64,000 nucleotides of DNA from Neoroseomonas terrae (GTDB lineage: Bacteria > Pseudomonadota > Alphaproteobacteria > Acetobacterales > Acetobacteraceae), in assembly GCF_018129025.1 (NCBI RefSeq), contig NZ_JAAEDI010000031.1, positions 1-64,000 of the forward strand. The letters run 5' to 3'. The notes beneath the pieces were generated by a model. That model saw nothing but the letters and a program-made list of their open reading frames with translations, searched no databases and was not told where the DNA came from. How positions within the stretch are numbered: the stretch's first letter is position 1; each line of letters opens with the position of its first letter. Below are positions 406 to 60,882 of this stretch, piece by piece. The translations under genes and the position numbers were made by a program.

Positions 406-631
406 CGGAGGGGCGCTGCCCCTCCGAACCACCCCGCCAGGTGCTTGGAGCACCTGGACCGCAATCTGTTGGTGCCGGGCACGGCAGGCACACTGGAACC
501 CTTCACGCACGCTTCGTGCGCAGGAGCGGGTCTCGGTATCGGTCCTGCCTGCGTCGCCCGGCGCCAAGTGGAGGTTTGCAAAGGCCTTTCGGCCTTTGCT
601 GGGGTGGCTTGGAGGGGCAAAGCCCCTCCAA
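406..631. repeat. Composite hairpin element, copy A (L arm then inverted R arm)
   Basis: Four hairpins lie in order. The outer L hairpin (406-426) has CGGAGGGGC pairing with GCCCCTCCG. The inner L hairpin (437-457) has CCAGGTGC pairing with GCACCTGG. The inner R hairpin (578-599) has GCAAAGGCC pairing with GGCCTTTGC. The outer R hairpin (609-631) has TTGGAGGGGC pairing with GCCCCTCCAA. The element sits between two convergent genes, 9 bases after one stop codon and 31 bases from the other. Seven more copies occur in this window. There is no T-run after the stems. A bidirectional transcription-end role is inference. Confidence 0.85.
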
Positions 632-662
632 CATCAACAGTGGCCGCGAGGGCGCGCCCCCC

Positions 663-1619
663 TCAATCCAGGCTGATCCCCCGCGCCCGCACGATCGCCC
701 CCCATACATCCGTCTCCGCCGCGAGTTGCCGGCGAAACGCCTCCGGCCCTTCGGTGCGGATGGAGGCGCCGAGGCTGGTCATGCGCGCCACCATGGGCGG
801 TTCGGCCAGCACCTGGCGGAAGGCGTTGTAGAGGCGCTGGATCGCGGCGTCCGGCGTGCGGGTCGGGGCGAGCGTGCCCTGGCCGATGCCGGCGTCCCAG
901 GCGGGCCAGCCGAGTTCGCGGAAGGTCGGGACGCCGGGCAGGTCCGGCAGGCGGTTCGGGCCGGTCACGGCAATGGCGCGCAGGCGGCCGTCCTTCACGA
1001 AGGGCAGCACGGCCGTGGCGCCGTTCACGATGAGCTGGCTCTCGTTGGTGACGGCGGCCTGGATGCCGATCATGCCGCCCCGGTAGAAGACCTCGGTGAC
1101 CGTGCCGCCCCAGTGCTGCATGACGACGAGCATGGTCAGGTGGTTCAGCGCGCCGACACCGGAATGCGCGAAGTTCAGGCGGCCCGGGTCGGCTTGCACC
1201 AAGGCGGCGAGTTCCGCGCCGGTCTGCGCCGGCACCGAGGGGTGAACCGCCATGATGTAGGGCGCGAAGGTCAGCATCGTGATCGGCGCGAGATCGGTCG
1301 CCGGATCGTAGGGCAGGCGGGCGAACAGGCTCGGCCCGGCGGTCAGGATGCCGGTGTCGGTCAGCAGGATGGAGGTGCCGTCGGGTGGCGACTTCGCGAC
1401 GTTGTCGGCGCCGAGGTTGCCGGCCGCGCCGCCGCGATTGTCGATCACCACGACCTGGTTCAGCACGCGCTGCAGCTCCGGCTGCAGGATGCGGGCAAGG
1501 ATGTCGGAGGAACCGCCGGGCGGGAACGGCACCACGATGCGCAGCGGGCGGTCCTGCGCCGCGGCAGGGCCGGCCAGAAGCAGCGCCGGCGCGGCCAGCA
1601 GGGAACGGCGGGTTGTCAT
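663..1619 (-). CDS. Bug/TctC-family tripartite tricarboxylate transporter binding protein
   Basis: A periplasmic solute receptor of 318 residues, the usual Bug length. The N-terminus MTTRRSLLAAPALLLAGPAAAQ is a signal peptide with an Arg-Arg pair and an AQ cleavage end. It is followed by the family signature RPLRIVVPFPPGGSSDILAR, then a conserved PYDPATDLAPI segment and the GxVGALNHLT region. Such receptors capture carboxylated substrates for TctA/TctB permeases, but no permease genes are nearby. The start codon overlaps the stop of the mannonate dehydratase-like gene by four bases, so the two are probably co-transcribed and the ligand may be a sugar acid (inference). Its 3' end faces hairpin element A. 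Confidence 0.9.
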   Translation of the reverse strand: MTTRRSLLAAPALLLAGPAAAQDRPLRIVVPFPPGGSSDILARILQPELQRVLNQVVVIDNRGGAAGNLGADNVAKSPPDGTSILLTDTGILTAGPSLFARLPYDPATDLAPITMLTFAPYIMAVHPSVPAQTGAELAALVQADPGRLNFAHSGVGALNHLTMLVVMQHWGGTVTEVFYRGGMIGIQAAVTNESQLIVNGATAVLPFVKDGRLRAIAVTGPNRLPDLPGVPTFRELGWPAWDAGIGQGTLAPTRTPDAAIQRLYNAFRQVLAEPPMVARMTSLGASIRTEGPEAFRRQLAAETDVWGAIVRARGISLD

Positions 1620-2650
1620 GGCGTTGTTCCTCCCGTCTCCGCGCCGAGCGCGCGGATGATTCCGGCGATGTACCCAGTGGCATAGGCGCGGCTGCGATGG
1701 CCCCAGACCGTGTCCTCCGCGACATGCGGGACGTGGTCGTCGATGATAGAGCCGTCGAAGCCTTCGTCCCGCAGCACGCGCAACACGGCGACCGGATCGA
1801 CGCTGCCTTCATCGATGAAGGCTTCCGCGAAACGCGGCAGCGCACCGGCGACCGAGCGCAAATGGACGTAGTGGATGCGGCCGTCCCGCGCGAAGCGGCG
1901 CAGCGCTGCCATCATGGCGTCGGCCCCCGCCTCGGCGAAGGTGCCGGTGCAGAAGCACACGCCGTGGCTGGGGCTGTCGGCGAAGGACATGGCGCGGGCG
2001 AAGGCGGCCTCGTCGCGGAAGATGCGGGCGACGCCGTCCAGCACGGGCACGGGCGGATCGTCCGGATGCAGTGAGAGTTTCACGCCGGCGGCTTCGGCGA
2101 CGGGCAGGACCTCGGTGATGAAGCGTTCCCAGTTCGCCCACATCGCGGCCTCGTCGCGCGGCGGCAGGCTGCCGGTCGCGACGCGCTGGCCGACATCGTC
2201 GTCATAGGCGGTGATCAGTGCGCCGCCGCGGCCATGGGCAGCCTTCGCCGTGCGCCAGACGCCGTCGGGGATCCAGTTGTAGCCGAGGATAGGGATGCCC
2301 GCCTGGCCCATGGCGCGGATCGTCGCCTTGAAGTGGTCGATCTGCTCATCCGCGCCCGGCAGGCCGAGCATCGCCTTGTCGATCAGGTTGCGCGGCACGC
2401 CCTCGATGCAGTCGAGCGTCAGGCCGTGCGCTTCGACGGCCGCGCGCATCTGTGCGAGGTCGAGCGCGGACCAGCGCTTCGTCGGCGGTCGCGGGCCGGC
2501 GGCGGCAGTGAATTCCTTGTTCAGGAACGCCACCCAGGCGGGGCTGTCGAGGTCAGGCTTGTTGACCATGACGCCGGCGCAGCCGATTTGCCGCGCGAAG
2601 GCGAGGTCGGCCTGGGTCAATTCCCGGAATTGCCCGGCGAGGACGCGCAT
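1616..2650 (-). CDS. uxuA: Mannonate dehydratase-like enzyme (UxuA family)
   Basis: A TIM-barrel enzyme of 344 residues. The family converts D-mannonate to 2-dehydro-3-deoxy-D-gluconate in hexuronate breakdown. Visible family features are the metal-site segments LSLHPDDPP, GVCFCTGTFAEAG, IHYVHLRSV and DDHVPHVAEDT, and a GYNWIPDGVW segment. The chosen start MRVLAGQFRELT follows a good ribosome site (GGGAGAAACC); an upstream in-frame extension would run through the promoter. It forms an operon with the downstream Bug receptor and is divergent from a GntR regulator, a typical sugar-acid cassette. A related sugar-acid dehydratase activity cannot be excluded from sequence alone. Confidence 0.85.
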   Translation of the reverse strand: MRVLAGQFRELTQADLAFARQIGCAGVMVNKPDLDSPAWVAFLNKEFTAAAGPRPPTKRWSALDLAQMRAAVEAHGLTLDCIEGVPRNLIDKAMLGLPGADEQIDHFKATIRAMGQAGIPILGYNWIPDGVWRTAKAAHGRGGALITAYDDDVGQRVATGSLPPRDEAAMWANWERFITEVLPVAEAAGVKLSLHPDDPPVPVLDGVARIFRDEAAFARAMSFADSPSHGVCFCTGTFAEAGADAMMAALRRFARDGRIHYVHLRSVAGALPRFAEAFIDEGSVDPVAVLRVLRDEGFDGSIIDDHVPHVAEDTVWGHRSRAYATGYIAGIIRALGAETGGTTP

Positions 2651-4017: not shown

Positions 4018-5358
4018 ATGGCCTCCCCGCTTGCCCTGACCGACGCTGACGACCCCTCCTTTGCCGAGCTCCTGGCCCTGCGCCCGCATCTCGCCCTGCA
4101 CGCCATGGACGGGCTGGTGATGGAGGAAGTGCCGCTCGCCCGTATCGCGGCCGAGGTCGGCACGCCGGCCTGGGTCTATTCCGCCGGGGCGCTACGCCGC
4201 CGCGCTCGCGCCCTGAAGGCCGCGCTGACCGGCGCCGGGCTGACCGCCACCGTGCATTTCGCCATGAAGTGCAACGACAACCTCGCGGTGCTGAAGGTGC
4301 TGGCTGGCGAGGGCCTCGGCGCCGACGTCGTCAGCGAGGGCGAGCTGCGTATCTCCCGCGCGGCCGGCATCCCGGCCTCGGGCATCGTCTTCTCCGGCGT
4401 CGGCAAGACGGCCGACGAGATCCGCCACGCGCTGGAGGAGGACATCTTCCAGATCAATGCCGAGAGCGTGGAGGAGATCGAGATGATCTCCGCCATCGCC
4501 GCCGGCATGGGCCGCACGGCGCGCGTCGCCATCCGCGTGAACCCGGATGTGGATGCCAAGACCCACGCCAAGATCACGACGGGCAAGAGCGAGAACAAGT
4601 TCGGCGTCGCGATCTCCGACGCCGCGGCGATCTATGCCCGCATGGCCGCGCTGCCGGGGATCGAGCCGATCGGCATCGCGACGCATATCGGCAGCCAGAT
4701 CACGTCGGGCATGGCGGCCTATCGCGCGGCCTATGCGCGGCTTGCCGAGCTGGTGAAGGCGCTCCGGGCGGATGGCCTGCCGGTGCAGCGCGTCGATTGC
4801 GGCGGCGGGCTCGGCATTTCCTATCGCGACGAACCGGCGCCCTCCCCCGAGGCGCTGGCCGGTGCGATCCGCGCGACGCTTGGTGAACTCGACCTGCCGG
4901 TCATGCTGGAACCGGGCCGCTGGATCGCCGGTCCGGCCGGGGTGCTGCTGGCCTCGGTCGTGTTGCAGAAGCAGGGTGCGGCGCATCGCTTCGTCGTTGT
5001 GGATGCGGCGATGAACGACCTGGTGCGGCCGGCTATGTATGAGGCGTGGCACGGCATCGTGCCGGTTTCGTCCGTGCAGGCAGTGGCGCCGCTGACGGCG
5101 GCCGAGGTGGTCGGGCCGGTCTGCGAATCCGGCGACACCTTCGCCCGCGGCCGGATGCTGCCGTCCCTGGTGACGGGCGACGTCGTCGCCTTCCTGGATG
5201 CCGGCGCCTACGGGGCGGTGATGTCCTCCACCTACAATGCCCGGCCGCTGGCGCCGGAGGTGCTGGTGGATGGGGATCGCTTCGCCGTCGTGCGGGCCCG
5301 GCAGACGCATGATGCACTGCTGCATGGGCAGCAGGTGCCCCCATGGCTGGCGGCGTGA
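4018..5358 (+). CDS. lysA: Diaminopimelate decarboxylase
   Basis: The last enzyme of lysine synthesis: it decarboxylates meso-diaminopimelate using pyridoxal phosphate. It has 446 residues, close to family length. Visible features are the PLP lysine in TVHFAMKCNDN, the glycine-rich phosphate loop CGGGLGISYRDE, the EPGRWIAGPAG segment and the active-site cysteine motif GPVCESGDTFARGRMLP. I chose ATG 4018 (MASPLALTDADD) because the upstream in-frame part is low-complexity repeat sequence. The next gene but one element is a TIGR02302 gene, the usual alphaproteobacterial neighbour of lysA. Confidence 0.95.
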   Translation: MASPLALTDADDPSFAELLALRPHLALHAMDGLVMEEVPLARIAAEVGTPAWVYSAGALRRRARALKAALTGAGLTATVHFAMKCNDNLAVLKVLAGEGLGADVVSEGELRISRAAGIPASGIVFSGVGKTADEIRHALEEDIFQINAESVEEIEMISAIAAGMGRTARVAIRVNPDVDAKTHAKITTGKSENKFGVAISDAAAIYARMAALPGIEPIGIATHIGSQITSGMAAYRAAYARLAELVKALRADGLPVQRVDCGGGLGISYRDEPAPSPEALAGAIRATLGELDLPVMLEPGRWIAGPAGVLLASVVLQKQGAAHRFVVVDAAMNDLVRPAMYEAWHGIVPVSSVQAVAPLTAAEVVGPVCESGDTFARGRMLPSLVTGDVVAFLDAGAYGAVMSSTYNARPLAPEVLVDGDRFAVVRARQTHDALLHGQQVPPWLAA

Positions 5359-5372: not shown

Positions 5373-5578
5373 TTGGAGGGGCGCTGCCCCTCCAAGCCAC
5401 CCCGCCAAAGGCCCGAGGCCTTTGGAAACCATGACATGGCGCCAGGCGCCGCTGCCAGGATGAACGCCCCGATCCGCCTTCGGGAACCTGGCGTGACCGT
5501 CGTGCCGGGCACCAAAAGATTGCGGTCCAGGATGCCCAGCATCCTGGCGGGGTGGCTCGGAGGGGCGGCGCCCCTCCG
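5373..5578. repeat. Composite hairpin element, copy B (R arm then inverted L arm)
   Basis: Same family as copy A but in the opposite orientation. The outer R hairpin is at 5373-5395 (TTGGAGGGGC/GCCCCTCCAA) and the inner R hairpin at 5405-5425 (CCAAAGGCC/GGCCTTTGG). The inner L hairpin is at 5527-5547 (CCAGGATGC/GCATCCTGG) and the outer L hairpin at 5558-5578 (CGGAGGGGC/GCCCCTCCG). It begins 15 bases after the lysA stop. Here the flanking genes run in the same direction, and the downstream gene starts 46 bases after the element. Confidence 0.85.
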
Positions 5579-5623: not shown

Positions 5624-8179
5624 ATGACCCAGCTCGCCCGCCGTACCCGCCTTGCGCGCCTCGTCCTCTGGTGGGAAGCGGCGTGGCCGGCGCTCTGGCC
5701 ACCGCTGGGCGTCCTCGGCCTGTTCCTGCTGGTCGCGCTGCTTGGCCTGCCGCTCCACCTGCCAGGCACGCTGCATGCGCTCCTGCTCCTCGGCTTTGCC
5801 GCCGCCCTGGGCTGGACGGGCTGGCGGGCGGCACGGCTGCTGGCGTTGCCGGGCACCGAGGCGGCGCAACGGCGCCTGGAACGCGATTCCGGACTGGCGC
5901 ACCGCCCAATCGCGACGCTGGGCGACCGGCCGAGCGGCAACGACCCCGTCGGCCTCGCGCTGTGGGAGGCGCATCGCCGCCGGGCAGCCGAGCGGCTGTC
6001 CGCTCTGCGTGTCACCGCGCCGCGGCCGGGCTTGGCGAAGCGCGACCGCCTGGCGCTTCGCGGCGGCCTGCTGGTGGCGCTGGCGGCAGCCTTCATGATT
6101 GCCGGAGTGGAAACCCCCGAACGCCTGCGCCGGGCCCTGGTGCCGCATTTCTCCGGCGCGGCCCTGCCCACCACGCCGGGCGTGCGGCTGGAGGCCTGGA
6201 TCACCCCGCCGGCCTATACCGGCGCCGCGCCGGTCTTCCTCGACACTGCCGGCGGCGCAGTGAGCGTGCCGGCGGGCAGCCGCCTGCAGGTCGCGCTGTC
6301 GGGCGGCGCCGGGGGCGTGCCCGATCTGGTGCTCGGCGGCAGGGCGATGCCGTTCCGCACGCTCGACCGCGGCTCCTACACGATGGAAACGGTGCTCGAC
6401 ACCGGCGCGCGGCTCGCGGTGCGGCGAGACGGCACCGAGATCGCCCAATGGACCCTGACGGTACGCGCGGATGCCCCGCCGGTGGCGGCGTGGGAACAGG
6501 CGCCGGCCCGTGCCGCGCGCGGCCTGGCCATCCGTCTGCCATGGCGGGTGGAGGATGATTGGGGTGTCGCCGCACTTCGCGTCGAACTTCGCCTCAAGCT
6601 GCGGCCGGAGGCGGAGCCGGTGGTGCTGGACCTGCCGCTGCCGCCGGGCAGCCCGCGCAGTGCGCAGGGGGCCGGCCAGCCTGACCTGTCCGCCCATCCC
6701 TGGGCAGGGCTGGAGGTCGAGGCACGGCTCGTCGCCCGCGACCATGCTGGCCAGGAAGGGCGGAGCGAGGGCGCGTTCCTGGAACTGCCGGAACGTTCCT
6801 TCACGCATCCGGTGTCGCAACTGCTGATCGCGCTGCGCAAGGCGCTGTCGGTCGACCCCTCGGGGCGCGAGCCGGCGCGGCAGGAGCTCGACCGCATCGC
6901 CAATGCGCCGGACGCCTTCGAGCACGATACCGGTACCTTCCTCGCGCTGCGCAGCGCCCGGCACCGCCTTCTGCGCGACCGCCGCCCGGCAGCGGTCACC
7001 GAGGTGCAGGAGACGTTGTGGGACATTGCCGTGGCGCTTGAGGAAGGGCGCACGGACCGTACCGCGCGCGCCCTGGCCGCCGCACGGGAGGCGCTGCGCG
7101 AAGCGTTGGAGGAAGCCCGTCGCAACCCCGAGCAGCAGACCGCCGAGCAGCGCGCCGAACTCGAACGCCGCATCCAGGACCTGCGGGAGGCCATCCGCCG
7201 CCACCTCGAAGCGCTTGCCGAACGGTTGCAGCGCGAGAATGCCGAGGCCCTGCCCTATGACCCGCAGCAGCGGCTGATGGACCAGCGCGAGTTGGACCGC
7301 CGCACCCGTCGCATGGAGGAAGCCGCCCGCCAGGGCCGCACCGAGGACGCGCAGCGCGAACTCGCCGAATTGGAGGAGATGCTCCGCGCCCTGGAGGAAG
7401 GCCGCAACATGCGCGCCGAGGATCGCCAGCGGCAGCAGCAGCGCCAGCGCGGGCAGCAGCAGATGGGCGCCGTGCAGGACATGGTTCAGCGACAGGCGCA
7501 GATGCTCGACCGCGGCCACCAGCGGGCCGAGCAGACCGACCGCGAACGCGCCCAGCAGCGCCGCCAGTCGCAAAGCTTCACTTGGCCGCAGCGCCCGCAG
7601 CCGCCGCAGCAGGCCCAGCCCAACCCGCAGCAGCAGGCGGAAAGCCAGCAGGATGCACGCATCCAGCGCGCGCTCCGCCGCGCGCTCGGGGAGCTGATGC
7701 AGCAATTCGGCGACCTGACCGGCGACGTGCCGCAACAGCTCGGCGAGGCCGACCGCGCCATGCGCGATTCAGCCGAGGCGCTGGGCGAAGGCGGCGACGC
7801 CCGCGACGCGCAGCAGCGTGCCATCCGCGCCCTGACCGAAGGCGGCCGCCAGATGGCCCAGCAGATGCAGCGCCAGTTCGGCCAGTCCCAGCCCGGCGAG
7901 GGCGAGGAGGACGGCGAAGGCGACGGCATGGCCAATGGCGAGCAGGGCGGCGAAGGCCAGGACCAGGCGCAGGAACAGGGGCCCGGGCGCGACCCGCTCG
8001 GCCGCCGGACGCGGGAACAGACCGGCGGGCAGGACAATGCCTCCGACACCCGCGTGCCGGATGAGGCCGAACTGCTGAAGACCCGGCGCCTGCAGGAAGA
8101 ACTGCGGCGGCGGGGCGCTGAGCGCGAACGGCCGCCGGCGGAGCTGGACTACATCGATCGGCTGTTGCGGCAGTTCTGA
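5624..8179 (+). CDS. TIGR02302 / DUF4175 family large membrane-anchored protein
   Basis: 851 residues, function unknown. The N-terminal 160 residues contain hydrophobic segments at about 30-75 (PLGVLGLFLLVALLG and a second stretch) and at about 150-165 (GGLLVALAAAFMIAGVE). A beta-rich middle follows, with a VEDDWGVAALRVELRLKL segment. The C-terminal half is long helical, rich in Gln, Arg and Glu (about residues 480-700), and ends in an acidic Gly/Glu tail and a KTRRLQEELRRRGAER end. Composition, length and position right after lysA match the alphaproteobacterial TIGR02302 family. ATG 5624 was chosen because it precedes the first membrane segment; the upstream frame crosses hairpin element B. 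Confidence 0.85.
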   Translation: MTQLARRTRLARLVLWWEAAWPALWPPLGVLGLFLLVALLGLPLHLPGTLHALLLLGFAAALGWTGWRAARLLALPGTEAAQRRLERDSGLAHRPIATLGDRPSGNDPVGLALWEAHRRRAAERLSALRVTAPRPGLAKRDRLALRGGLLVALAAAFMIAGVETPERLRRALVPHFSGAALPTTPGVRLEAWITPPAYTGAAPVFLDTAGGAVSVPAGSRLQVALSGGAGGVPDLVLGGRAMPFRTLDRGSYTMETVLDTGARLAVRRDGTEIAQWTLTVRADAPPVAAWEQAPARAARGLAIRLPWRVEDDWGVAALRVELRLKLRPEAEPVVLDLPLPPGSPRSAQGAGQPDLSAHPWAGLEVEARLVARDHAGQEGRSEGAFLELPERSFTHPVSQLLIALRKALSVDPSGREPARQELDRIANAPDAFEHDTGTFLALRSARHRLLRDRRPAAVTEVQETLWDIAVALEEGRTDRTARALAAAREALREALEEARRNPEQQTAEQRAELERRIQDLREAIRRHLEALAERLQRENAEALPYDPQQRLMDQRELDRRTRRMEEAARQGRTEDAQRELAELEEMLRALEEGRNMRAEDRQRQQQRQRGQQQMGAVQDMVQRQAQMLDRGHQRAEQTDRERAQQRRQSQSFTWPQRPQPPQQAQPNPQQQAESQQDARIQRALRRALGELMQQFGDLTGDVPQQLGEADRAMRDSAEALGEGGDARDAQQRAIRALTEGGRQMAQQMQRQFGQSQPGEGEEDGEGDGMANGEQGGEGQDQAQEQGPGRDPLGRRTREQTGGQDNASDTRVPDEAELLKTRRLQEELRRRGAERERPPAELDYIDRLLRQF

Positions 8180-8194: not shown

Positions 8195-8255
8195 TTGGAG
8201 GGGCTTTGCCCCTCCAAGCCACCCCACCAAAGGCCGAAGGGCCTTTGGAAACCTC
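8195..8255. repeat. Solo R-type arm of the hairpin element, copy C
   Basis: Only one arm is present. The outer hairpin (8195-8217) has TTGGAGGGGC pairing with GCCCCTCCAA, and the inner hairpin (8227-8248) has CCAAAGGCC pairing with GGCCTTTGG, followed by AAACCTC. It lies 16 bases after the stop of the TIGR02302 gene and 97 bases from the 3' end of the convergent DUF1835 gene. I find no matching inverted arm in the remaining spacer. Confidence 0.8.
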
Positions 8256-14889: not shown

Positions 14890-17454
14890 ATGCCCCGCGC
14901 TGCCCTGACCGACCATTCCGCTGCCTCCCTCCGGTCCGAGGGGGCCAGCTCCGGCCGTTTCGCCTCCGCGGCGGTTCGTGCCGTGCTGCGGCGCCGGGCG
15001 ATGGAACTCACCGGGCTGCTGGTGGCGCTGGGCGCCGTCGCGCTGGCCGTCGCGCTGGGCAGCCACAACGCGGCGGACCCGTCGCTCAACACCGCGACGT
15101 ATGGACCGACGACGAACCTTGCCGGACCGGCGGGCGCCATCGTCTCCGACCTGATGCTGCAGGTGTTCGGCTTCGCCGCGGCGCTGCCCTGCGTCGTGCT
15201 GCTCGCCTGGGCGTTCCGGCTGGCGACGCATCGGGGCCTCGGTTCCGTGCCGGCGCGGGTGCTCGGGCTGCTGGCCGGCATGCCGATGGCCGCGGCGGCG
15301 ACGTCGCTGCTGCCGCTGCCCCGCATGCTGCCGATCGAGGCCGGGCCCGGCGGCATCATGGGGCCCGCCGTTGCCGGGCTGGTGGTGGAGGGGCTGGCGA
15401 GCCTGTTCGGCCCGCTCGGCAGCCTCGCCGGCCAGGGGATCGTCATGGTCGCCGCGGTCGGCACAGCCTTCATCGCCTGCGGGCTGACGGTCGGCGAGTG
15501 GCGCGGCGCCGGCCGTGTTGCGGTCGGCGCGGGCCAGGTGGCCGTGGTCGCCGCCCGCAACGGCGCGGCGAGCCTGCGCCGCAACGGCCCGGACGACGAC
15601 GAGGAGGACCACGAGCCGCCGCCCGCCCGCCCGCGTCGCCCTGGCCTGATCGCGCGGCTGAGCATGCCCTTTCAGCGCATGGGCCGCGGCGCCGGCGCGC
15701 TGCTGAGGCGGGAGCCCGGCACGACGACCACCCTGGGTGCGATGCTGCGCGCGGCGGATGAGGCGGCGACTGCCGCCCCGCCTAGCCCGGCCGACCCGCC
15801 CGCCCCGCTGCCCGGCCAGGATGGCGATGCGCGGCCGGGTACCGAACCCGCCGCCAAGCCCCGCCTCGCCGCGCGCAGCAAGGTGCTCGACCGCGCGCCG
15901 GACCGCACCCGCCGCCCGCCGGAACAGCGCGCTCTCGATCTCGGCACCGATGGCTGGAAGCTCCCGCCGCTCGACCTGCTGACCGAGGCGCCGGCGCGAC
16001 GCACGGGGCGGCCTTCGGAGGAATCGCTGCAGGCCAATGCACGGCTGCTGGAATCGGTGCTGGAGGATTACGGCGTGCGCGGCCGCATCGCCGAGATCCG
16101 CCCCGGTCCGGTGGTTACGCTGTATGAGCTGGAACCGGCGCCGGGCACCAAATCCTCGCGCGTCATCGGCCTCGCCGACGACATCGCGCGGTCGATGTCG
16201 CTGATCGCCGTGCGCATCGCGACCGTGCCCGGCCGCAACGTCATCGGCATTGAGATGCCGAATGCCAAGCGCGAGACGGTCTATCTGTCGGAGATGTTCG
16301 CGGACGAAGCCTGGACGCGCCATCAGGCGAAGCTGCCGCTCGCGCTCGGCAAGGATATCGGCGGCAGCCCGGTCATCGCCGACCTCGCCCGCATGCCGCA
16401 TCTGCTGATCGCGGGCACCACCGGCTCGGGCAAGTCGGTCGGGATCAACACCATGATCCTGTCGCTGCTGTATCGCTTCGGGCCGGACGAGTGCCGCTTC
16501 ATCATGATCGACCCGAAGATGCTGGAACTGTCGGTCTATGACCGCATCCCGCATCTGCTGGCCCCGGTAGTGACCGAGCCGCCCAAGGCGATCGGCGCGC
16601 TGAAGTGGACGGTGCGGGAGATGGAGCGCCGCTACCGCGCCATGTCCCAGCTCGGCGTGCGAAACATCGGCGGCTACAACGAGAAGGTCACCGCGGCCCG
16701 CGCGCGCAGCGAGGTCCTGACCCGCAAGGTGCAGACCGGATTCGATCCGGATACCGGCAAGCCGGTTTTCGAGGAACAGCCGCTCGCCCTCGAACCCCTG
16801 CCCATGATCGTCGTCGTCATCGACGAGATGGCCGACCTGATGATCGTCGCGGGCAAGGAGATCGAGGCGGCGGTGCAGCGCCTCGCGCAGATGGCGCGCG
16901 CCGCCGGCATCCATGTGATCATGGCGACGCAGCGCCCGTCGGTGGACGTCATCACCGGCACCATCAAGGCGAACTTCCCGACCCGCATCTCCTTCCAGGT
17001 GACGTCGAAGATCGACAGCCGCACCATCCTCGGCGAGCAGGGGGCGGAGCAGCTCCTCGGCCAGGGCGACATGCTGCACATGCCGGGCGGCGGACGGCTT
17101 GCCCGCGTCCACGGCCCGTTCGTGTCCGATACCGAGGTCGAGCGCGTCGTCGAGTTCCTGCGCGAGCAGGGCGAGCCCGCCTATATCGAGGAAGTCACCG
17201 AGGAAGCCGACGAGGACGGCGCGCAGCCCGGCATGCTCGGCGGCAACACCGATGCCGAGGGCTCGCTCTACGACCAGGCGGTGGCGCTGGTGACGCGGGA
17301 AGGCAAGGCGAGCACGAGCTTCGTCCAACGCCACCTCAACATCGGCTACAACCGCGCCGCGAAGCTGATCGAGCAGATGGAGAAGGAAGGCGTCGTCGGC
17401 GCCGCCAACCATGTCGGCAAGCGCGAGGTCCTCGCGCCGGGTCCGCGGGACTAG
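14890..17454 (+). CDS. ftsK: DNA translocase FtsK
   Basis: An inner-membrane, septum-located ATPase that pumps chromosomal DNA and promotes dimer resolution during division. It has 854 residues. N-terminal membrane segments lie between about 35 and 210 (for example [19 protein letters not shown]). An Arg/Pro/Asp-rich linker runs from about 225 to 375. The motor domain has Walker A GTTGSGKS (about 509) and Walker [13 protein letters not shown] (about 637). The C-terminal winged-helix gamma domain (about 791-854, with [18 protein letters not shown]) reads polar DNA motifs. The length fits alphaproteobacterial FtsK, which has a short linker. Only 116 bases separate it from the gene upstream. Confidence 0.95.
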
Positions 17455-22238: not shown

Positions 22239-22469
22239 CTGGAGAGGGGCGCCGCCCCTCTCCAGACCTCACCCCGCCAGGCCATTGCATGGCCTGGACC
22301 GTCGGCACCTGGCGTTGGGCAGAAGGTCGTTCTGGCCCCGGCAAACGCGCGGGGCGCAGGCGCGGGTTTCGGCACCATTCTGCCAGCGGCGCCCGACGCC
22401 CGGTTGAGGTTTGCAAAGGCCCTTCGGCCTTTGCCGGGGTGGGGTTCGGGGAGGGGCGGCGCCCCTCCC
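22239..22469. repeat. Composite hairpin element, copy D (L arm then inverted R arm)
   Basis: The outer L hairpin is at 22239-22265 (CTGGAGAGGGGC/GCCCCTCTCCAG), the inner L at 22277-22297 (CCAGGCCAT/ATGGCCTGG), the inner R at 22413-22434 (GCAAAGGCC/GGCCTTTGC) and the outer R at 22449-22469 (GGGAGGGGC/GCCCCTCCC). Outer stems are extended relative to copy A by compensating bases. It lies 83 bases after the Bug gene stop. The 442-base spacer around it holds no gene I can support. Confidence 0.82.
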
Positions 22470-26508: not shown

Positions 26509-26740
26509 GGAAGGGGCTCTGCCCCTTCCCGAACCCTACCCCGGCAAAGGCCGAAAGGCCTTTGCAAACCTCGACCTGGCGCTGCGCGCATAGGGCCGGA
26601 CGATGATGGTCATATGCTCTGCGCACGGAAGCGATTTGACATCAGGAGAATGGCCTTCGCGCCCGGCGCCAAATGATGGCGGTCCAGGCCATCCATGGCC
26701 TGGCGGGGTGAGGCTCGGAGAGGGGCAGTGCCCCTCTTCG
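26509..26740. repeat. Composite hairpin element, copy E (R arm then inverted L arm)
   Basis: The outer R hairpin is at 26509-26529 (GGAAGGGGC/GCCCCTTCC), the inner R at 26544-26565 (GCAAAGGCC/GGCCTTTGC), the inner L at 26684-26703 (CCAGGCCAT/ATGGCCTGG) and the outer L at about 26716-26740 (an imperfect GAGAGGGGC/GCCCCTC). It lies between the convergent esterase and cmk genes. The 341-base spacer has no gene. Confidence 0.8.
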
Positions 26741-32387: not shown

Positions 32388-32657
32388 TCGACAGCGGAAG
32401 TATCGGTGTAACCAGAAGGGCCTTCGGAACCGTTACCTGGCGCCGGGCGGCACAGTTGCGTTCCGCATGGCGATGCCCGTCGCGCGCAGCGCCGGCCAGC
32501 GCTCCCCGCCAAATGGGCAGCACACCCCCAACCGCGCGCTGGTGGCAGACAGAAAACGGTGGGTCTGCGGGGAGTTCCCTCCCCCCGCTTCTGACGCAGT
32601 TCCAGCCGGGCGCCGGCTGACCTACTCTCGGCGTCTCGACCCAGCCGAGGAACGCCC

Positions 32658-39994: not shown

Positions 39995-40591
39995 TCAGCG
40001 ATCCCCGAGCAGGAATCCCTCGGCCATCAGGCGGAAAGCATGGACGGCCTTCGGCAGCACGGATTGCGGGTCGTCGCTGGCCGCCACCCACAACGCCGCG
40101 TTCAGGGCTGCCCCGCACAGAAGACGGGCCGCGGCCTCGATGTCGACGCGCTTCATGACGCCGTCCGCGATCAACCCGGCAACGGTCCGCTTCGTCGCGT
40201 CCAGGCACGCATTCTGGCTGGGCCAGCGAGACGGGTCGCCAAGGAAGGCGGGCCCGTCGAGCAGCACGATCCGGCGCACCTCCGGGTCCAGCGCCATGGC
40301 GATATAGGCCGCGCCCTCGGCCAGCAGCCGCTCCCAGCCATCTGCCGCCGCTGCGCTGGCTTCCCGAGCGCGCGCCGCCATCTCGCCATCGACCTGCGCC
40401 ACCACGGCCGCCAGCAGCCCCGCCTTGTCGCCGAAATTGTGATAGAGCGCGCCGCGCGTCAGGCTGACGGATGCGGTCAGTTCATCCATCGACGCGGCGG
40501 CGAACCCTTCCGCCGCGAATGCCTTGCGTCCGGCGGCAATCAGCTTGCTGCGGTTCTGCTCCATCGCTTCCAGGCGACGCCGTGCGACCAT
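39995..40591 (-). CDS. TetR/AcrR-family repressor
   Basis: 198 residues. The N-terminal DNA-binding domain is clear: KLIAAGRKAFAAEGFAAASMDELTASVSLTRGALYHNFGDKAGLL, with the helix-turn-helix around SVSLTRGALYHNF. The remaining helices form a ligand-binding domain. I chose ATG 40591; ATG 40633 is in frame but lies inside the operator described next. It is divergent from a RidA-family gene and probably controls that gene and itself. Confidence 0.88.
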   Translation of the reverse strand: MVARRRLEAMEQNRSKLIAAGRKAFAAEGFAAASMDELTASVSLTRGALYHNFGDKAGLLAAVVAQVDGEMAARAREASAAAADGWERLLAEGAAYIAMALDPEVRRIVLLDGPAFLGDPSRWPSQNACLDATKRTVAGLIADGVMKRVDIEAAARLLCGAALNAALWVAASDDPQSVLPKAVHAFRLMAEGFLLGDR

Positions 40592-40626
40592 CACAGATCC
40601 TTCATGCGCTCCGCGCTGCGCATCGG

Positions 40627-40668
40627 TTGACATACGAGACGTATGTTATCTTCATATACGGCACGTAT
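40627..40668. promoter_or_regulatory. Promoter and tandem palindromic operator between tetR and ridA-like gene
   Basis: ATACGnnnCGTAT occurs at 40632-40644 (in the longer palindrome CATACG-AGA-CGTATG, 40631-40645) and again at 40656-40668, 24 bases apart. A perfect -35 hexamer TTGACA (40627-40632) abuts the first copy, and TTCATA (40651-40656) 18 bases on could be the -10 box for rightward transcription. The two operators therefore cover the promoter spacer and start region, the expected layout for repression by the adjacent TetR protein. Confidence 0.72.
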
Positions 40669-40734
40669 GCTGAGCTGCGCACCGACGTTATGCCGCCGGC
40701 ATCGCGTTTCCGCGACCCCCGAGGAGACTGCCCC

Positions 40735-41127
40735 ATGGCCAAGCGTGACGCCGTTTTTCCTGCCGGCCGGCATGACCTCTACACCGCGCAGACCTATTCC
40801 GCGGCGATCAGGTCCGACAGCCTCCTGTTCGTGTCCGGCCAGGTCGGCAGCCGCAGCGATGGCTCGCCCGAGCCGGAGTTCGAGGCCCAGGTCCGTCGGG
40901 CATTCGCCAATCTCGAGGCGACCCTGGCGGCTGGTGGATGCGGTCTGGACGACATCGTCGACGTGACGACCTTCCACACCGATCCCGAGAAGCAGTTCGC
41001 GACCGTCATGGCCGTCAAGGCGGAGGTCTTCCCGCAGGCGCCCTATCCGAACTGGACGGCGGTCGGCGTCACCTGGCTCGCCGGGTTCGACTTCGAGATC
41101 AAGGTCATCGCGCGGATCCCCGCCTGA
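40735..41127 (+). CDS. RidA family protein
   Basis: 130 residues. The family pattern is visible in YSAAIRSDSLLFVSGQVG, VRRAFANLEATLAAGGCGLDDIVDVTTFHTDPE, and the C-terminal YPNWTAVGVTWLAGFDFEIKVIARI. RidA proteins hydrolyse reactive enamine/imine intermediates; the arginine that anchors substrate in true RidA is not evident at the usual C-terminal place, so another subfamily role is possible. ATG 40735 follows GAGGAGA. It is transcribed away from the TetR gene through the tandem operator. Confidence 0.85.
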   Translation: MAKRDAVFPAGRHDLYTAQTYSAAIRSDSLLFVSGQVGSRSDGSPEPEFEAQVRRAFANLEATLAAGGCGLDDIVDVTTFHTDPEKQFATVMAVKAEVFPQAPYPNWTAVGVTWLAGFDFEIKVIARIPA

Positions 41128-41206
41128 ACGTCAGCGGCTGCCGCCCGGAAGCCACGCGTGCGGCGATCCCGCACGCCGGATCCTTCGACCGGCGCGCGGT
41201 CGTCGC

Positions 41207-42061
41207 CTACCCTTCCACCGGCACCAGCCGCGTCAGCCGCGCCGGGTTCTGCTCCGACAGATAGATGCATGCATCCGGCCCGCACCACATGCCGTGTGCC
41301 CCGTTCAGCACCGGCCGGCAGCGCCCGAGAATTGTCCCGTCCGGCCCCAGCAGCGAGAGTTGCGGCACCTGGTCCGTCACATACAGCCCGCCGCCCGGCG
41401 CGCCGTGCACGCTCATCGGCTTGTGGTTGCCGTGCCAGGTGTCCAGCCAGGACCCGTCCGGCGTGAAGACCTGAACGCGGTTGTTCTCGCGATCCGCCAC
41501 GGTTACGCGCCCGTCCGGCAGCACCCAGACCGAATGCGGGGTGGAGAACTCGCCGGGGCCGGTGCCCTCATGCCCCCAGCGGGCCATCGGCGTGCCCTCG
41601 GCGCTGAAGCGGTGCACGACCGAGGCCGCGTAGCCATCGGCGACGTAGATTGATCCGTCCGGGCCGAAGGCGACATCGCAGGGTGCGTTGAAGGGCTCGC
41701 CCGGGTGGTCGCGGCGACCGAGGCCGCCCAGTCGCTTTCCATCTCGCGAGAAGACGATGATCTCATGCGCGTCGCGGTCCACGACGAAGACGCGGCCATC
41801 GGGATGGACAGACAGCATGTGGCCGTCCGCGACCTCCGCCCCGCCCCAGGCATCGATGCGCCGGCCATCGGGGGCGAGCACGACGACGGCCGGATTCTCC
41901 GGGTCCGTCATCGGATCCCGGCGAAGCTGGACATAGACGCGGCCCTCCGCATCGCAGGCGACGTCGCTCGGCACGCCCATGCCTTGGGGAACCTCACCCC
42001 AGGGACGCTCGACGCGATAGCGCGTGTCGCCGAGGCGGACGTAGAGCTGGTGGCGCGCCAT
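41207..42061 (-). CDS. NHL-repeat beta-propeller protein
   Basis: 284 residues. NHL-type blades are visible: SDVACDAEGRVYVQL, MLSVHPDGRVFVVDRDAHEIIVFSRDG, CDVAFGPDGSIYVADGYAASVVHRFSAEG, FSTPHSVWVLPDGRVTVADRENNRVQVFTPDG and GLYVTDQVPQLSLLGPDG. This resembles peptidylglycine alpha-hydroxyglycine lyase-like or gluconolactonase-like propellers, but no signal peptide is present and the enzymatic role is unknown. It is convergent with the RidA-like gene and divergent from a lipoprotein gene. Confidence 0.85.
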   Translation of the reverse strand: MARHQLYVRLGDTRYRVERPWGEVPQGMGVPSDVACDAEGRVYVQLRRDPMTDPENPAVVVLAPDGRRIDAWGGAEVADGHMLSVHPDGRVFVVDRDAHEIIVFSRDGKRLGGLGRRDHPGEPFNAPCDVAFGPDGSIYVADGYAASVVHRFSAEGTPMARWGHEGTGPGEFSTPHSVWVLPDGRVTVADRENNRVQVFTPDGSWLDTWHGNHKPMSVHGAPGGGLYVTDQVPQLSLLGPDGTILGRCRPVLNGAHGMWCGPDACIYLSEQNPARLTRLVPVEG

Positions 42062-42227
42062 GATCTGAACCCTCCGAAAGCCAGCGCAGCGTGGCCCGGA
42101 GAGGAGCGAGGGGCAACGGCCGGGGCCTGCGCAACGGTTCACTGGCGCGCCGATGCCACGCCCCGGCATGGGTATGATCCGGGTGAGGTTTCGGCATAGC
42201 CTGCGCCCGTCACAGGAGAACGACGCC

Positions 42228-43016
42228 ATGCCGGACCGCCGCCTGCTCTTCCGCCCCGCCTTTCTGGTGCTCGGGCTCGGCCTGCTGGCCGGGTGCGAGC
42301 AGGCCACGGGCGCCGCAGGTTCGCTGGCCGGCAGCGCTGCGGGCTCAGCCGCCTCCAGCGCGGTCGCGGGCGCGGTTGCGGGGCCGGTGGGGCAGGTCGC
42401 CGCCGGCGCCGCCGGCAGTGCCGCCAATGCCGGCACCGCCCAGCTCACCCGGATGGCCGCCGCCGCAGCGCAGGGCGCCTGGGGCGACGTGGCGCAGGAA
42501 CCCGTGGCCGCCTGCAACGGCGCGGCCGACAAGCCCTGTGCCGAGGCCCAGGCTCTGCGCGCCCGCGCCTGCCGTCGCCAGGCGGCGAGCGCCGCCGCCG
42601 GCCAGCGCGCCGGCTATCTCGATTGCGCCGTCACGGCGGGGCAAGCCGCGCTCGCCGCCGGCGGCGCCAATACCCCGGCCGAACGCAATACCTGGCGGGA
42701 GGAACTGCTCGCCGCCATCTACGACCGCCGCTCCGGTCAGCCCCGCGCGAACATCTGCCCCGACAACGACCTGCTGCGTGCGGAGGCCGACACGCTGCTG
42801 CGCGATTCGCCGGGCAACAGCTCGGCCCGGTTCTACGGTGGCAGCGCACGGATGATGGGTGTGTCGGTGTCCTGCGGTGCGGAGGACCAGCGCTGCAGTG
42901 ATCTTGCCGAAGCCTCGCGGCTGCTGAACCCGCCCCAGTCCGACGCGCGATGGACGCAGACTGCGGAAGGGGTGCAGACGTTGCAGCGGGTGGTGGTGGG
43001 CTGCCCGGGGGCGTGA
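42228..43016 (+). CDS. Lipoprotein with glycine-zipper-like N-terminal region
   Basis: 262 residues. ATG 42228 follows CAGGAGAA. The signal ends in a lipobox LLAGC, so Cys22 should be lipidated. An Ala/Gly/Ser-rich stretch with small-residue periodicity follows (about 25-75), resembling glycine-zipper segments that insert in membranes. The C-terminal two thirds contain six or more cysteines (for example VAACNGAADKPCAEA, ARACRRQ, LDCAV, NICPDND, VSCGAEDQRCSD) consistent with several disulfides in the periplasm. Family not recognised. It converges on the HAD gene with hairpin element G between. Confidence 0.75.
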   Translation: MPDRRLLFRPAFLVLGLGLLAGCEQATGAAGSLAGSAAGSAASSAVAGAVAGPVGQVAAGAAGSAANAGTAQLTRMAAAAAQGAWGDVAQEPVAACNGAADKPCAEAQALRARACRRQAASAAAGQRAGYLDCAVTAGQAALAAGGANTPAERNTWREELLAAIYDRRSGQPRANICPDNDLLRAEADTLLRDSPGNSSARFYGGSARMMGVSVSCGAEDQRCSDLAEASRLLNPPQSDARWTQTAEGVQTLQRVVVGCPGA

Positions 43017-43043
43017 CGCCAGCACTCTGAGCGCTCAGGGTTT

Positions 43044-43289
43044 CCGGAGAGGGGCTTTGCCCCTCTCCGGACCTCACCCCACCAAAGGCCGAAGGGCCTT
43101 TGGAAACCTCGACCGGGTGCCGGGCCCGAAATGCGCGCCCCACTGCTCCTCGGCCGAGATGCATCAGGCGCGAACCCTAAGACTGTCCTGCCCCTGACAG
43201 CACTTCCATCGCGTCCAACGCCAAGTGGAGGTTTCCAAAGGCCCTTCGGCCTTTGGCGGGGAGGGTCCGGGAGGGGCAGCGCCCCTCTC
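43044..43289. repeat. Composite hairpin element, copy G (R arm and inverted R arm)
   Basis: Both arms are R type. The outer hairpin is at 43044-43070 (CCGGAGAGGGGC/GCCCCTCTCCGG) and the inner at 43082-43103 (CCAAAGGCC/GGCCTTTGG). The inverted inner hairpin is at 43235-43256 (CCAAAGGCC/GGCCTTTGG) and the outer at 43269-43289 (GGGAGGGGC/GCCCCTCTC). It lies between convergent genes, 27 and 32 bases from their stops. The 305-base spacer holds nothing else I can support. Confidence 0.85.
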
Positions 43290-43321
43290 GGTTCCGCCTG
43301 TCGCTCAATCAGAGCCCATCG

Positions 43322-43966
43322 CTACAGCCCCAGCAGCCCGCCGAGCTCATCCATCGAACCGAACGGCTCCGCACCATGCGCCGCCAGCACGCCGCGCGGC
43401 GTCTCGTGCGCGAAACCCAGTACGCGGCACCCCGCGGCCACCCCGGCGCGCACGCCAGGCACGCTGTCCTCGACCACAACGCAATCCTGCGGGGCGGCGT
43501 CGCAGGCCGCCGCCGCGGCCAGGTAGATGTCCGGGTAGGGCTTCGGCCGGTCGACGTCCTCGAAGGAGAAGATGCGCCCGGCGAAAACCGGCGCGAGGCC
43601 AAGGGCGCGCATCTTAGCCGCCAGCTCGACCCGGCCGGAATTCGACGCCACCGCGACCGGGATGCCCGCCGCGACGACGCGACGCACCGCCTCGGCCGCG
43701 CCAGGCACGGCCGGCGTGCGCCGGGCCATCTCGCGGGCGATGAGGATCGACATCTCCTCCGCCCACCCCGGTGCCAGGGGGCCGACGCGCGCCTCGATGT
43801 GCGGCACCATGTCCGGCAGCGCGAGGCCGAGGAAGGCATTGCGCGCTTCCGCCGCCGTCATCGGCCAGCCCAGCGCGGTGAGTTGTTCGGCGACCAGCGC
43901 GTTCACCACCATCTCGCTGTCCGCCAGCACGCCATCGCAGTCGAACAGGACGGCGCGCGGCCTCAT
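43322..43966 (-). CDS. HAD-superfamily phosphatase (beta-phosphoglucomutase-like)
   Basis: 214 residues. Motif I is VLFDCDGVLADSE at the N-terminus (Asp nucleophile and Asp+2 acid), motif II is the VASNSG serine, motif III a lysine-bearing GLAPVFAGRIFSFEDV and KPYPDIYL, and motif IV is CVVVEDSVPGVRAG. The four-helix cap suits small phosphosugars or similar, with substrate unknown. The start at 43966 overlaps the hemH stop by four bases, so it is coupled to hemH. Confidence 0.9.
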   Translation of the reverse strand: MRPRAVLFDCDGVLADSEMVVNALVAEQLTALGWPMTAAEARNAFLGLALPDMVPHIEARVGPLAPGWAEEMSILIAREMARRTPAVPGAAEAVRRVVAAGIPVAVASNSGRVELAAKMRALGLAPVFAGRIFSFEDVDRPKPYPDIYLAAAAACDAAPQDCVVVEDSVPGVRAGVAAGCRVLGFAHETPRGVLAAHGAEPFGSMDELGGLLGL

Positions 43967-45045
43967 GCGGCGGCTTCCGCGATCCGGGCGCGGGCATGCG
44001 GGCAGTCGCCCTGCTGCTTCGGGCATTGCCGCGCGCCGGCGTAGGAACAGAGCGTGCGCCCCGACGCGAGCGCCCCGCGGGCGAGATCGGCCAGGGCGGC
44101 GATGAAGCCGGCGTCGCTATTCTGCGCCGGCACGCGGAAATACCCGGGCACGCCTAGCTTGTGCGCGACCTCGCGATACTCGATGTCGAGCTCCACCAGC
44201 GTCTCCGAATGCTCGGAGACGAAGGCGATCGGGCAGACCAGCAGCGCGACCTTGTCATGCGCGGCGCGCTCGATCTCGGCCTCGGTGGACGGCCCGATCC
44301 AGACCTGGGGCGTGACGCGGGACTGGTAGCAGACCGCATGGTCCATCTCGGCAATGTCGCCGAGTTCCCGACGCACGGCCGCGACGGTGCGTTCCACCTG
44401 CCACTGATACGGGTCGCCGGCCTTCACGATGCTCTCGGGCAGGCCGTGGGCGGAGAACAGCAGGCGCAGCGGCACGTCGTCCGGCAGCGCCGCGCGCGCT
44501 TGCGCATAAGCGCCGCGGACCAGCGCCGCCGTGGCGGATGCGAAACCGCCATGCGAATGCCAGCAGCAGAGCATCGTCGTCGGCACCGACAGGCCGATGG
44601 CCGCGCAGGCCTCGTCCCAGGCGGTGGCGGAACTGCCGGTCGTGGTGGTCGAATACTGCGGGTAGAGTGGCAGCAGCAGCACCTCGTCGGGCTTCCAGGC
44701 CTGGACGTCGCGCGCGACGGCATCCGACAGGGGGTGCCAGTAGCGCATGGCGACGAAGCTGCGCGCCTCGATGGCCGGGTCGCCGGCGAGGGCGGCATCG
44801 AGTGCCCGGCCCTGTTCCTGCGTCAGTTCCAGCAGCGGCGAACGGCCGCCGATGAAGGCGTAGTTCTCGAGCGCCGGCTTCGTGCGGCGCCAGGCGATGA
44901 GGCGACCGAGCCAAGGCCGCACGAAGCCCGGCACCCGCAGGATCGCCGGATCGGTGAAAAGGTTCGTCAGGAACGGACGAACGCTTTCCGGGCGATCGGG
45001 ACCGCCCAGGTTGAACAGCACGATGGCGACGCGGCGCTTGGTCAT
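43963..45045 (-). CDS. hemH: Ferrochelatase
   Basis: The last haem synthesis step: it inserts ferrous iron into protoporphyrin IX. It has 360 residues, a typical length. Landmarks are VLFNLGGPDRPESVRPFL, LLLPLYPQYSTTTTG, the LLFSAHGLPESIV catalytic histidine region, and LLVCPIAFVSEHSETLVELDIEY with the metal-path glutamates. It lacks the C-terminal extension of animal enzymes. Cysteines near the C-terminus (TLCSYAGARQCPKQQGDCPHA) could bind an Fe-S cluster, as in several alphaproteobacterial ferrochelatases. It is followed by the coupled HAD gene, with secB 54 bases upstream on the same strand. Confidence 0.95.
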   Translation of the reverse strand: MTKRRVAIVLFNLGGPDRPESVRPFLTNLFTDPAILRVPGFVRPWLGRLIAWRRTKPALENYAFIGGRSPLLELTQEQGRALDAALAGDPAIEARSFVAMRYWHPLSDAVARDVQAWKPDEVLLLPLYPQYSTTTTGSSATAWDEACAAIGLSVPTTMLCCWHSHGGFASATAALVRGAYAQARAALPDDVPLRLLFSAHGLPESIVKAGDPYQWQVERTVAAVRRELGDIAEMDHAVCYQSRVTPQVWIGPSTEAEIERAAHDKVALLVCPIAFVSEHSETLVELDIEYREVAHKLGVPGYFRVPAQNSDAGFIAALADLARGALASGRTLCSYAGARQCPKQQGDCPHARARIAEAAA

Positions 45046-58308: not shown

Positions 58309-58376
58309 GCCGCGTCAGATCTGCCGGGAGCGGTGGCCGCGGTGACCCGCGTCACCGGGAGTTGTCCAATTGCCTT

Positions 58377-58405: not shown

Positions 58406-58410
58406 CTGCG

Positions 58411-58525: not shown

Positions 58526-58676
58526 TGTGCGTCGATTATCGCCCGAATACTTGGTGATCGCCCGCCTTCCTCATGTGACACATGAAGTTGCCGACAGCCG
58601 CCGGGCGCGCCTTTCGGCATGCGGCGGCGGCCTGTATAGGTGGCCGGTCCAGACCCTCGATCGGAGCCTTGCCCGC

Positions 58677-60193: not shown

Positions 60194-60612
60194 CGCGCCG
60201 ATTCGGACGCCGCGCCGGGCTGCTGGCGCTTCTGACGGGCCTTGCCGCCTGCGCGAGCACGCCGCCGGAGCAGCCCGCCGCGCCCGTCGTGCAGGACCCC
60301 GATCCGGAGCCGGAGGAAGTCTACTCCCCGGGCGCCATCCCCTGGGCCAACCTGACCGAGGAACACAAGCGCCGCGCCCGCGCCGCGCTGACCCGCCTCG
60401 GCGAGGACATCCCCGACGACGCGACGCTCCAGGCGCGCTGGATGCTCATGCCGCCGGCGCAGCAGCGCTACTCGATCCGCCGGCCGCCGCCGCCCCCGCC
60501 ACGACCGCGCGCCGCGCCGGCACGACGCGGTCGCGCCACGACGCCCGCGCGCCGGTCGCCGGCACCGACACGGCGGACACCGACGCCGCCACGGCGGACG
60601 CAGCAGCGCTGA
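60190..60612 (+). CDS. Small lipoprotein with proline/arginine-rich tail
   Basis: 140 residues. Lipobox LAAC after the signal RAGLLALLTGLAAC, so a periplasm-facing lipidated protein. A short acidic/hydrophobic middle (EEVYSPGAIPWANLTEEHKRRAR) is followed by a basic proline-rich tail (PPPPPPRPRAAPARRGRATT and onward) of low complexity. Function unknown. The start overlaps xthA; the stop lies 9 bases before hairpin element H. Confidence 0.7.
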   Translation: MTRRFGRRAGLLALLTGLAACASTPPEQPAAPVVQDPDPEPEEVYSPGAIPWANLTEEHKRRARAALTRLGEDIPDDATLQARWMLMPPAQQRYSIRRPPPPPPRPRAAPARRGRATTPARRSPAPTRRTPTPPRRTQQR

Positions 60613-60621
60613 CGGTGGGAA

Positions 60622-60882
60622 CCGGGCGGGGCTCTGCCCCTCCCGGACCCTCCCCGCCAAAGGCCGAAGGGCCTTTGGAAACCTTGACCTGGTACCGTGC
60701 GCTGCGGGTCATCGGAGAGCAGTGACCGGTTCCCTGCCCACCGCCCTGTTCGTAGTCTGACCGCCGGGCACGGCGTGCGTTCTCGTCGGCGATGAACAGT
60801 CCTGGCCGGCGCCAGTATCGGTTTGCAAAGGCCTCGGGCCTTTGCTGGGGTGAGGTTCGGAGAGGGGCAAGGCCCCTCTCCG
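60622..60882. repeat. Composite hairpin element, copy H (R arm and inverted R arm)
   Basis: The outer R hairpin is at 60622-60646 (CCGGGCGGGGC with GCCCCTCCCGG, one mismatch), the inner R at 60657-60678 (CCAAAGGCC/GGCCTTTGG), the inverted inner R at 60825-60845 (GCAAAGGCC/GGCCTTTGC) and the outer R at 60858-60882 (CGGAGAGGGGC/GCCCCTCTCCG). It lies between convergent genes, 9 and 11 bases from their stop codons. Confidence 0.85.

Follow-up and report, generated by a model that had tools for sequence, protein, structure and literature searches.

We analyzed a 64,000-nt stretch of Neoroseomonas terrae DNA (hereafter, the window), which lies on contig C31 of an assembly of 67 contigs and 5.77 Mb, and examined the hairpin elements that lie behind its genes. 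These elements belong to a repeat that is a high-copy intergenic mosaic, similar in build to bacterial interspersed mosaic elements (BIMEs). Judged by its sequence, the mosaic joins a class I intrastrand-triplex pattern to a second hairpin. On balance, we favor the reading that the repeat is a BIME-like mosaic of class I triplex hairpins, in which the DNA structure would be kept and the position at gene ends would result from purging together with a barrier role. The initial annotation of the window had listed eight elements, seven with two facing arms and one with a single arm (element C, 8195–8255); all eight were recovered at their annotated positions and with this arm number.

Arm anatomy and the mirror tract

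An arm consists, in order, of an outer hairpin (mostly 9–12 bp), a linker that is usually 3 nt long, a pyrimidine tract, an inner hairpin, and AAACC or ACCG. In left-type arms, the inner hairpin is CAAAGGCC..GGCCTTTG, followed by AAACC; in right-type arms it is CCAGG..CCTGG, followed by ACCG, and its middle pairs occur in three main self-complementary versions (30 arms). Positions 4 and 5 of the outer stem were Watson–Crick paired in 74 and 71 of 81 arms of the N. terrae genome, compared with shuffle means of 35.6 and 34.0.

The CCACCCC-type tract is a mirror of the 3′ (pyrimidine) arm of the outer hairpin, placed after the linker, a relation that had escaped the initial annotation. Mirror pairs in the window include CCCCTCC-N3-CCACCCC and CCCCTCTCC-N3-CCTCACCCC, and those in arms of related genomes include CCCCTCTCC-N3-CCTCTCCCC, CCCCTCCC-N3-CCCTCCCC, and CCCCTCTC-N3-CTCTCCCC. 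The complementary strand reads third (reverse-Hoogsteen) strand, N3, purine arm, loop, and pyrimidine arm; as a sequence pattern, the outer part of the arm is a potential class I purine-motif intrastrand triplex. Mirror repeats do not come from simple copying or inversion. A third strand in the major groove needs a base-by-base mirror fit, as is generally known and as described by Holder et al. (PMC4666352, cited here and below for the part of its text available to us).

The mirror relation was tested on 80 arms chosen by the inner hairpin and AAACC alone, with tract length and linker optimized. An outer stem of at least 6 bp was present in 65 of them (one of which belongs to two sets), and a mirror tract with 6–9 compatible triads was found in 64 of these 65, 59 times without mismatch. 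A net score of 7 was reached by 56 of the 65 arms, compared with a mean of 18.6 (maximum 28, 300 runs) when halves were exchanged between arms, and by 37 of 45 distinct sequences, compared with 11.5 (maximum 20), figures that overstate the number of events, since copies that are related cannot count as independent. Outer stem and mirror tract change together, keeping their fit.

The base opposite a stem T carries further information. Tract T or A corresponds to third-strand A or T; the purine motif allows both triads, and the pyrimidine motif T only. Among 23 distinct pairs, the tract base opposite stem T was T in 17 cases, A in 16, G in one, and C in none (33 of 34 T or A), compared with 43% A or T in exchanged tracts. 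In the N. terrae genome alone, 34 distinct arms gave A 25, T 4, and G 5. The third strand mostly has A or T at stem A-T pairs, as the A.A-T and T.A-T triads would require, and we therefore read the conserved structure as one of DNA, not RNA. Purine-motif triplexes are reported to exclude strands of RNA.

A family-blind scan for homopurine hairpins of at least 7 bp with a mirror third strand and at most one triad mismatch covered 464 kb, namely the window and an unbiased 400-kb sample drawn from the same fixed position on each of 20 contigs. It returned 37 class I motifs (one hairpin of element B being counted in both directions) and no class II motif; the 400-kb sample by itself contributed 26 of the class I motifs. 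A single block-wise shuffle of the scanned DNA gave no class I and one class II motif, and the scanner detected the published class II pattern in a positive control. Inside the repeat family lay 31 of the 37 motifs. Five of the six outside it share GGGGGA-type stems and form a class I family of the same genome that is unrelated in sequence (L185:6145–6173, L189:7373–7401, L189:14642–14669, L191:7406–7434, and L195:19907–19938); two of these units are convergent, two are co-directional, and one is at an edge. In 80 loci around relatives of an FtsK-like protein (so named by eye; window 14890–17454), which together span 1.38 Mb, the scan gave three class I and two class II motifs; the best named-genome relatives of this protein are from an alphaproteobacterial metagenome-assembled genome (MAG), Roseomonas MAGs, and other Acetobacteraceae. 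As a separate observation, relatives (loci L208, L210, and L212) carry, 3′ of the DUF4175 gene, a class I version that has 11 triads and whose mirror tract sets AA against TT of the pyrimidine arm.

Copy number, arm pairing, and position relative to genes

A whole-genome search with a strict pattern of the left-type arm, the check that the initial annotation had proposed, revealed a dispersed family: 135 matches (66 + 69) were found, and the pattern read backwards had none (0 + 0) in the 5.77-Mb genome. The window is enriched, with seven strict matches compared with a genome average of approximately 1.5 per 64 kb. Two arm profiles had 24 and 23 matches in the 400-kb sample and 0 and 0 in its reversed sequence; the sample holds 20 elements, which scales to roughly 290 elements genome-wide. 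Within the taxonomic family, the strict pattern was present in 15 of 299 genomes, N. terrae included, and in 7 of 102 genera. Searching for the palindromic inner hairpin by itself gave 1 to 334 sites per genome in 32 of 35 genomes of the genus, with 257 in N. terrae. Copy numbers were 334 in G299 and 174 in G303, and many other genomes of the genus had 0–4.

Combining strict-pattern places (100 of the 135 matches listed, 16 on contigs C23–C30 being left out), the window, and the 400-kb sample gave 113 distinct elements. Of these, 79 were two-armed, spanning 181–378 nt, 29 were single, and 5 had three or more arms. Arm types were assigned in 101 elements: 48 paired a left-type with a right-type arm, 25 paired two left-type arms, 25 were single left-type arms, and 3 were three-armed. 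No right/right pair was found among the 113 elements or among the 20 of the unbiased sample; the strict pattern represents left-type arms, so that the sampling favors these and right/right pairs could escape it. The arms of pairs face inward, and inverted terminal repeats are present. In some copies, similarity judged by eye continues approximately 15–50 nt past the outer hairpin, which makes the true element ends uncertain. The outer flanks of type I copies (e.g., L066, L075, L085, and L092) carry GGCCTTTCTG..CTACTTCCGC-like sequence on both sides, and this flank similarity is perhaps what remains of a longer ancestral element.

Placement of the family relative to genes was not random. The initial annotation had proposed to count copies at 3′ against 5′ ends, and the 113 elements comprised 62 in co-directional gaps, 48 in convergent gaps, one in a divergent gap, and two without a neighbor. 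Divergent gaps make up 22.8% of the element-free intergenic bases of the 400-kb sample, so that approximately 25 divergent elements were expected (binomial p = 2.6e-11 for 1 of 111). Of the 20 elements of the unbiased sample, 13 were co-directional, 7 were convergent (one of them overlapping a called gene), and none was divergent; the chance of finding no divergent one was 0.006, and the convergent excess had p = 0.07. Pfam backed the called direction of 38 of 40 neighbors (20 random elements with complete neighbors in longer loci), and the 18 elements with both neighbors Pfam-confirmed were convergent in 8 cases, co-directional in 10, and divergent in none. Similarly, 27 loci from other genomes were co-directional in 13 cases, convergent in 12, and at an edge in 2 (two of the loci being arms of one element). 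This placement fits a 3′-end role or purging from promoters.

Separately, a crude flank test without gene calls had put 21 of 94 elements in divergent gaps, a result opposed to the placement above; it was dropped because Pfam-confirmed neighbors contradicted it, for example the left neighbors of the L061, L064, and L094 elements.

Interpretation, rival explanations, and turnover

In the reading we favor, arms of the G-rich strand would fold into a triplex when that strand is exposed, on the lagging strand or near RNA polymerase, and the kept feature would be this DNA structure rather than an RNA structure. More tentatively, insertions near promoters may have been purged, leaving elements at gene ends, and the folded DNA might form a two-way barrier between neighboring transcription units. 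As to function, the repeat may either act as a barrier at 3′ ends on the level of DNA or represent mobile DNA that is tolerated at such positions. The co-change of hairpin arm and third strand, together with unrelated versions of the same build, is evidence from evolution for conservation of the three-stranded pattern as such, which in turn hints that triplex structures matter in living bacteria.

Several observations weigh against this reading. In the mirror tests, 15 of the 80 arms lacked a 6-bp outer stem and were left out, the overstatement inherent in the shuffle figures also counts here, and the G opposite stem T in 5 of the 34 distinct N. terrae arms is allowed by neither motif. The class I scan had no match in element E, whose outer stems are imperfect. 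In co-directional gaps, elements lay a median of 26 nt from the stop and 63.5 nt from the next start, a difference that was not significant (p = 0.10), so that a stop-side preference was not shown; orientation relative to gene direction had no clear bias (2>1<, 14; 1>2<, 11). For four of the 113 elements, the overlap with a gene call exceeded 30 nt. With a gene model unfiltered for G+C content at third codon positions (GC3), which we judged worse (the Pfam check covered the filtered model only), class I matches were divergent in 3 of 26 cases in N. terrae and 4 of 15 in three relatives, and 3 matches of N. terrae and 5 of the relatives lay in genes or elsewhere. No mismatch-free class I unit was found within 300 nt 3′ of cmk in 15 near and 5 distant loci, and a class I unit lay within 300 nt upstream of argG in 2 of 11 near relatives. 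In addition, Holder et al. (PMC4666352) report triplex signals in vitro and in vivo footprints that do not support stable triplexes, and, citing Hoyne and Maher (2000, 2002), PIT elements without promoter or terminator activity.

The same paper limits the novelty of the repeat. The initial annotation knew of no described element with this structure, and the composite was indeed not found in print; its core, however, an intrastrand-triplex hairpin in intergenic repeats, is already described there. No description of the repeat family by name or sequence was present among the literature matches listed, with most subscription journals and insertion sequence databases outside the scope. Holder et al. 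(PMC4666352) describe class II TMECO repeats, of which Escherichia coli MG1655 has 23, always intergenic, with five cases of facing type A/type B pairs. In the text available, the E. coli intrastrand triplex repeats have no assigned role and no proof of folding in cells, class I motifs are counted in general with no class I repeat family named, and the main text contains neither "Roseomonas" nor any word starting with "Acet". Like PIT, BoxC, and TMECO as described there, the present family is a short intergenic multi-copy repeat with a hairpin and a third strand after a 3-nt linker, T opposite A-T, facing inverted pairs, and copy numbers that differ widely among relatives. Unlike TMECO, which is class II (pyrimidine, purine, third strand) and, according to that text, more often upstream of open reading frames (ORFs), it is class I (third strand, purine, pyrimidine) and lies mostly 3′ of genes. 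A second hairpin follows here, which likewise sets it apart from TMECO as far as described, and most sampled copies are two-armed.

The repeat also resembles other intergenic palindromes. Repetitive extragenic palindromic (REP) sequences and BIMEs, which are associated with RAYT transposases, are palindromic intergenic units that occur singly or in facing pairs. Rhizobium-specific intergenic mosaic elements (RIMEs) and other rhizobial intergenic mosaic elements are alphaproteobacterial intergenic palindromic mosaics, and the likeness to them is one of general description. CGTC repeats are missing in Acetobacteraceae, according to the part of PMC3733652 available to us.

The strongest rival, nearly as probable as not and compatible with the reading we favor, is a non-autonomous element similar to miniature inverted-repeat transposable elements (MITEs), mobilized in trans by a transposase, possibly acting on single strands of DNA; in that case, the hairpins and mirror tracts would be recognition marks, and placement after genes would be what selection leaves. 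A miniature transposon had also been considered in the initial annotation, and this idea is supported in part by one gene junction that carries arms in four species and is short in some others; no target-site duplication was found, in copies whose true ends are uncertain. Copy numbers of the inner hairpin from 0 to 334 among 35 genomes of one genus, arm pairs facing inward, and the avoidance of divergent gaps speak for it as well. Conversely, flank matches were not in excess over permutation in 28 complete copies, whose true ends are uncertain; the N. terrae genome had no Y1_Tnp (IS200/RAYT-type) match at E 0.001, other transposase families being outside the search; and no sampled locus contained two inward-facing single arms, so there was no sign of a gene-bearing parent. 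A RAYT link was dropped as a candidate: PF01797 was not found in this genome (98.27% complete), and 5 of 14 control genomes were positive.

The filled junction illustrates that sites of the family are gained, lost, or swapped between species. Between the lysA-like and DUF4175 genes, two arms were present in N. terrae and in the three genomes nearest to it by DUF4175 protein (G322, G299, and G304), in junctions of approximately 247–310 nt. Junctions without an arm measured 17–23 nt in 4 loci, 38 nt in 14, 89–115 nt in 3, and 160–286 nt in 3; the short form (17–38 nt) accounted for 18 of 30 loci, 2 of which lacked lysA, and the short junctions were too diverged for a base-exact empty site. The copies of the three relatives are left/left and that of N. 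terrae is left/right, indicating that copies at this site were replaced or converted. We also compared argG and cmk in 20 of the 35 genomes (one of the 20 argG loci was dropped, having no downstream sequence). Element F lies 3′ of argG in N. terrae, a weakly scoring right-type half in G326 and G306, a left-type half in G304, and other class I sequences in G299 and G237. When relatives were split into near (N. terrae included) and distant by identity cut-offs of our choice, class I units within 300 nt 3′ of the gene were found in 4 of 11 near and 0 of 8 distant relatives for argG, 5 of 16 and 0 of 14 for DUF4175, and 4 of 14 and 0 of 14 for lysA. Arm matches with E ≤ 0.1 followed cmk (site E) in 5 of 20 loci, N. 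terrae included, and at site C the nearest relative had no arm and a different next gene. Orthologous gene ends with and without an element provide natural test sites.

A two-way transcription terminator that functions as RNA, lacks a U tract, and serves the genes that end on its two sides is a weaker possibility, and we consider it rather unlikely. Like intrinsic terminators, the elements are hairpins shortly after stop codons; they are enriched between convergent genes, and the inner hairpin AAAGGCC..GGCCTTT resembles a terminator. In the 60 of 64 kb scanned (40001–44000 left out), U-tract terminators were at chance (17 found, 18.4 expected), and 3′ of argG they occurred in 7 of 8 distant relatives and in none of 11 nearer ones. 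Nevertheless, in contrast to intrinsic terminators, the window elements had only one hairpin (D, left) that passed the U-tract scan over those 60 kb, right-type inner hairpins have no T run, and the choice between A and T in the mirror tract is easier to reconcile with a DNA than with an RNA structure. According to the available text of PMC4666352, E. coli PIT elements do not terminate transcription. The distant U-tract terminators (L310, L311, and L313–L317) are of the CCAGGAGG..CCTCCTGGGCTTTT type, and near relatives have GC-rich hairpins or none at this position. The idea that distant relatives use U tracts where near ones use triplexes was rejected, because it holds 3′ of argG and not in general: U-tract terminators per 3′ ends, compared with reversed sequence, were 4 of 136 vs. 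2 in distant relatives, 3 of 155 vs. 1 in N. terrae, and 0 of 136 vs. 1 in nearer relatives. More speculative still, and in our view doubtful, is that unrelated families in this Acetobacteraceae clade converged on the class I triplex hairpin 3′ of genes as a U-tract-free two-way end or insulator in GC-rich genomes.

Ordinary REP/BIME palindromes without a triplex role are improbable: the units are intergenic, palindromic, and often in inverted pairs, as in REP and BIMEs, but each consists of two hairpins and a mirror tract, the tract covaries with its stem, and no Y1_Tnp transposase was found in the N. terrae genome. Least probable is a G-quadruplex or a protein-binding repeat with mirror symmetry arising from G-tract spacing or a symmetric protein site, since, despite several short G runs on the G-rich strand, complementarity of the pyrimidine arm is maintained, which a quadruplex does not require, the class I order prevails over class II by 37 to 0, and units of relatives such as CTTCTCCCCCC-GCA-CCCCCCTCAAC still mirror each other at every base, with A in place of T.

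The eight elements of the window

Genes of the window were mapped by codon usage, trained on 28 long ORFs with high GC3. On this map, the last stop precedes each element by 8–83 nt (A 8, B 14, C 15, D 83, E 62, F 71, G 27, and H 9), compared with the 9–83 nt originally noted, and the annotated gene contexts were reproduced: A, C, E, G, and H are convergent, B, D, and F are co-directional, and none is divergent. Seven single arms folded as DNA had z-scores of −4.3 to −7.7, and no Rfam match in the window reached the gathering score.

Element A (406–631) has a right-type arm at the left and a left-type arm at the right, with class I triplex units at 407–435 (+) and 601–629 (−). The two arms of element B (5373–5578) lie between the lysA-like decarboxylase gene (4018–5358) and the DUF4175 gene (5624–8179), with class I units at 5375–5403 (+) and 5549–5577 (−). 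The single arm of element C is on the + strand and contains a class I unit at 8197–8225 (+). Class I units with nine triads are present in three two-armed elements: D (22239–22469; unit at 22241–22275, +) and, each with two left-type arms, G (43044–43289; unit at 43046–43080, +) and H (60622–60882; unit at 60847–60881, −). Element E (26509–26740), also two-armed, separates an esterase gene and the cytidylate kinase gene. Element F (32161–32387), two-armed and 3′ of the argininosuccinate synthase gene (30854–32089), has class I units at 32162–32190 (+) and 32357–32385 (−). Directly beyond it, at 32418–32453, is an arm-like remnant, which suggests tandem or nested copies.

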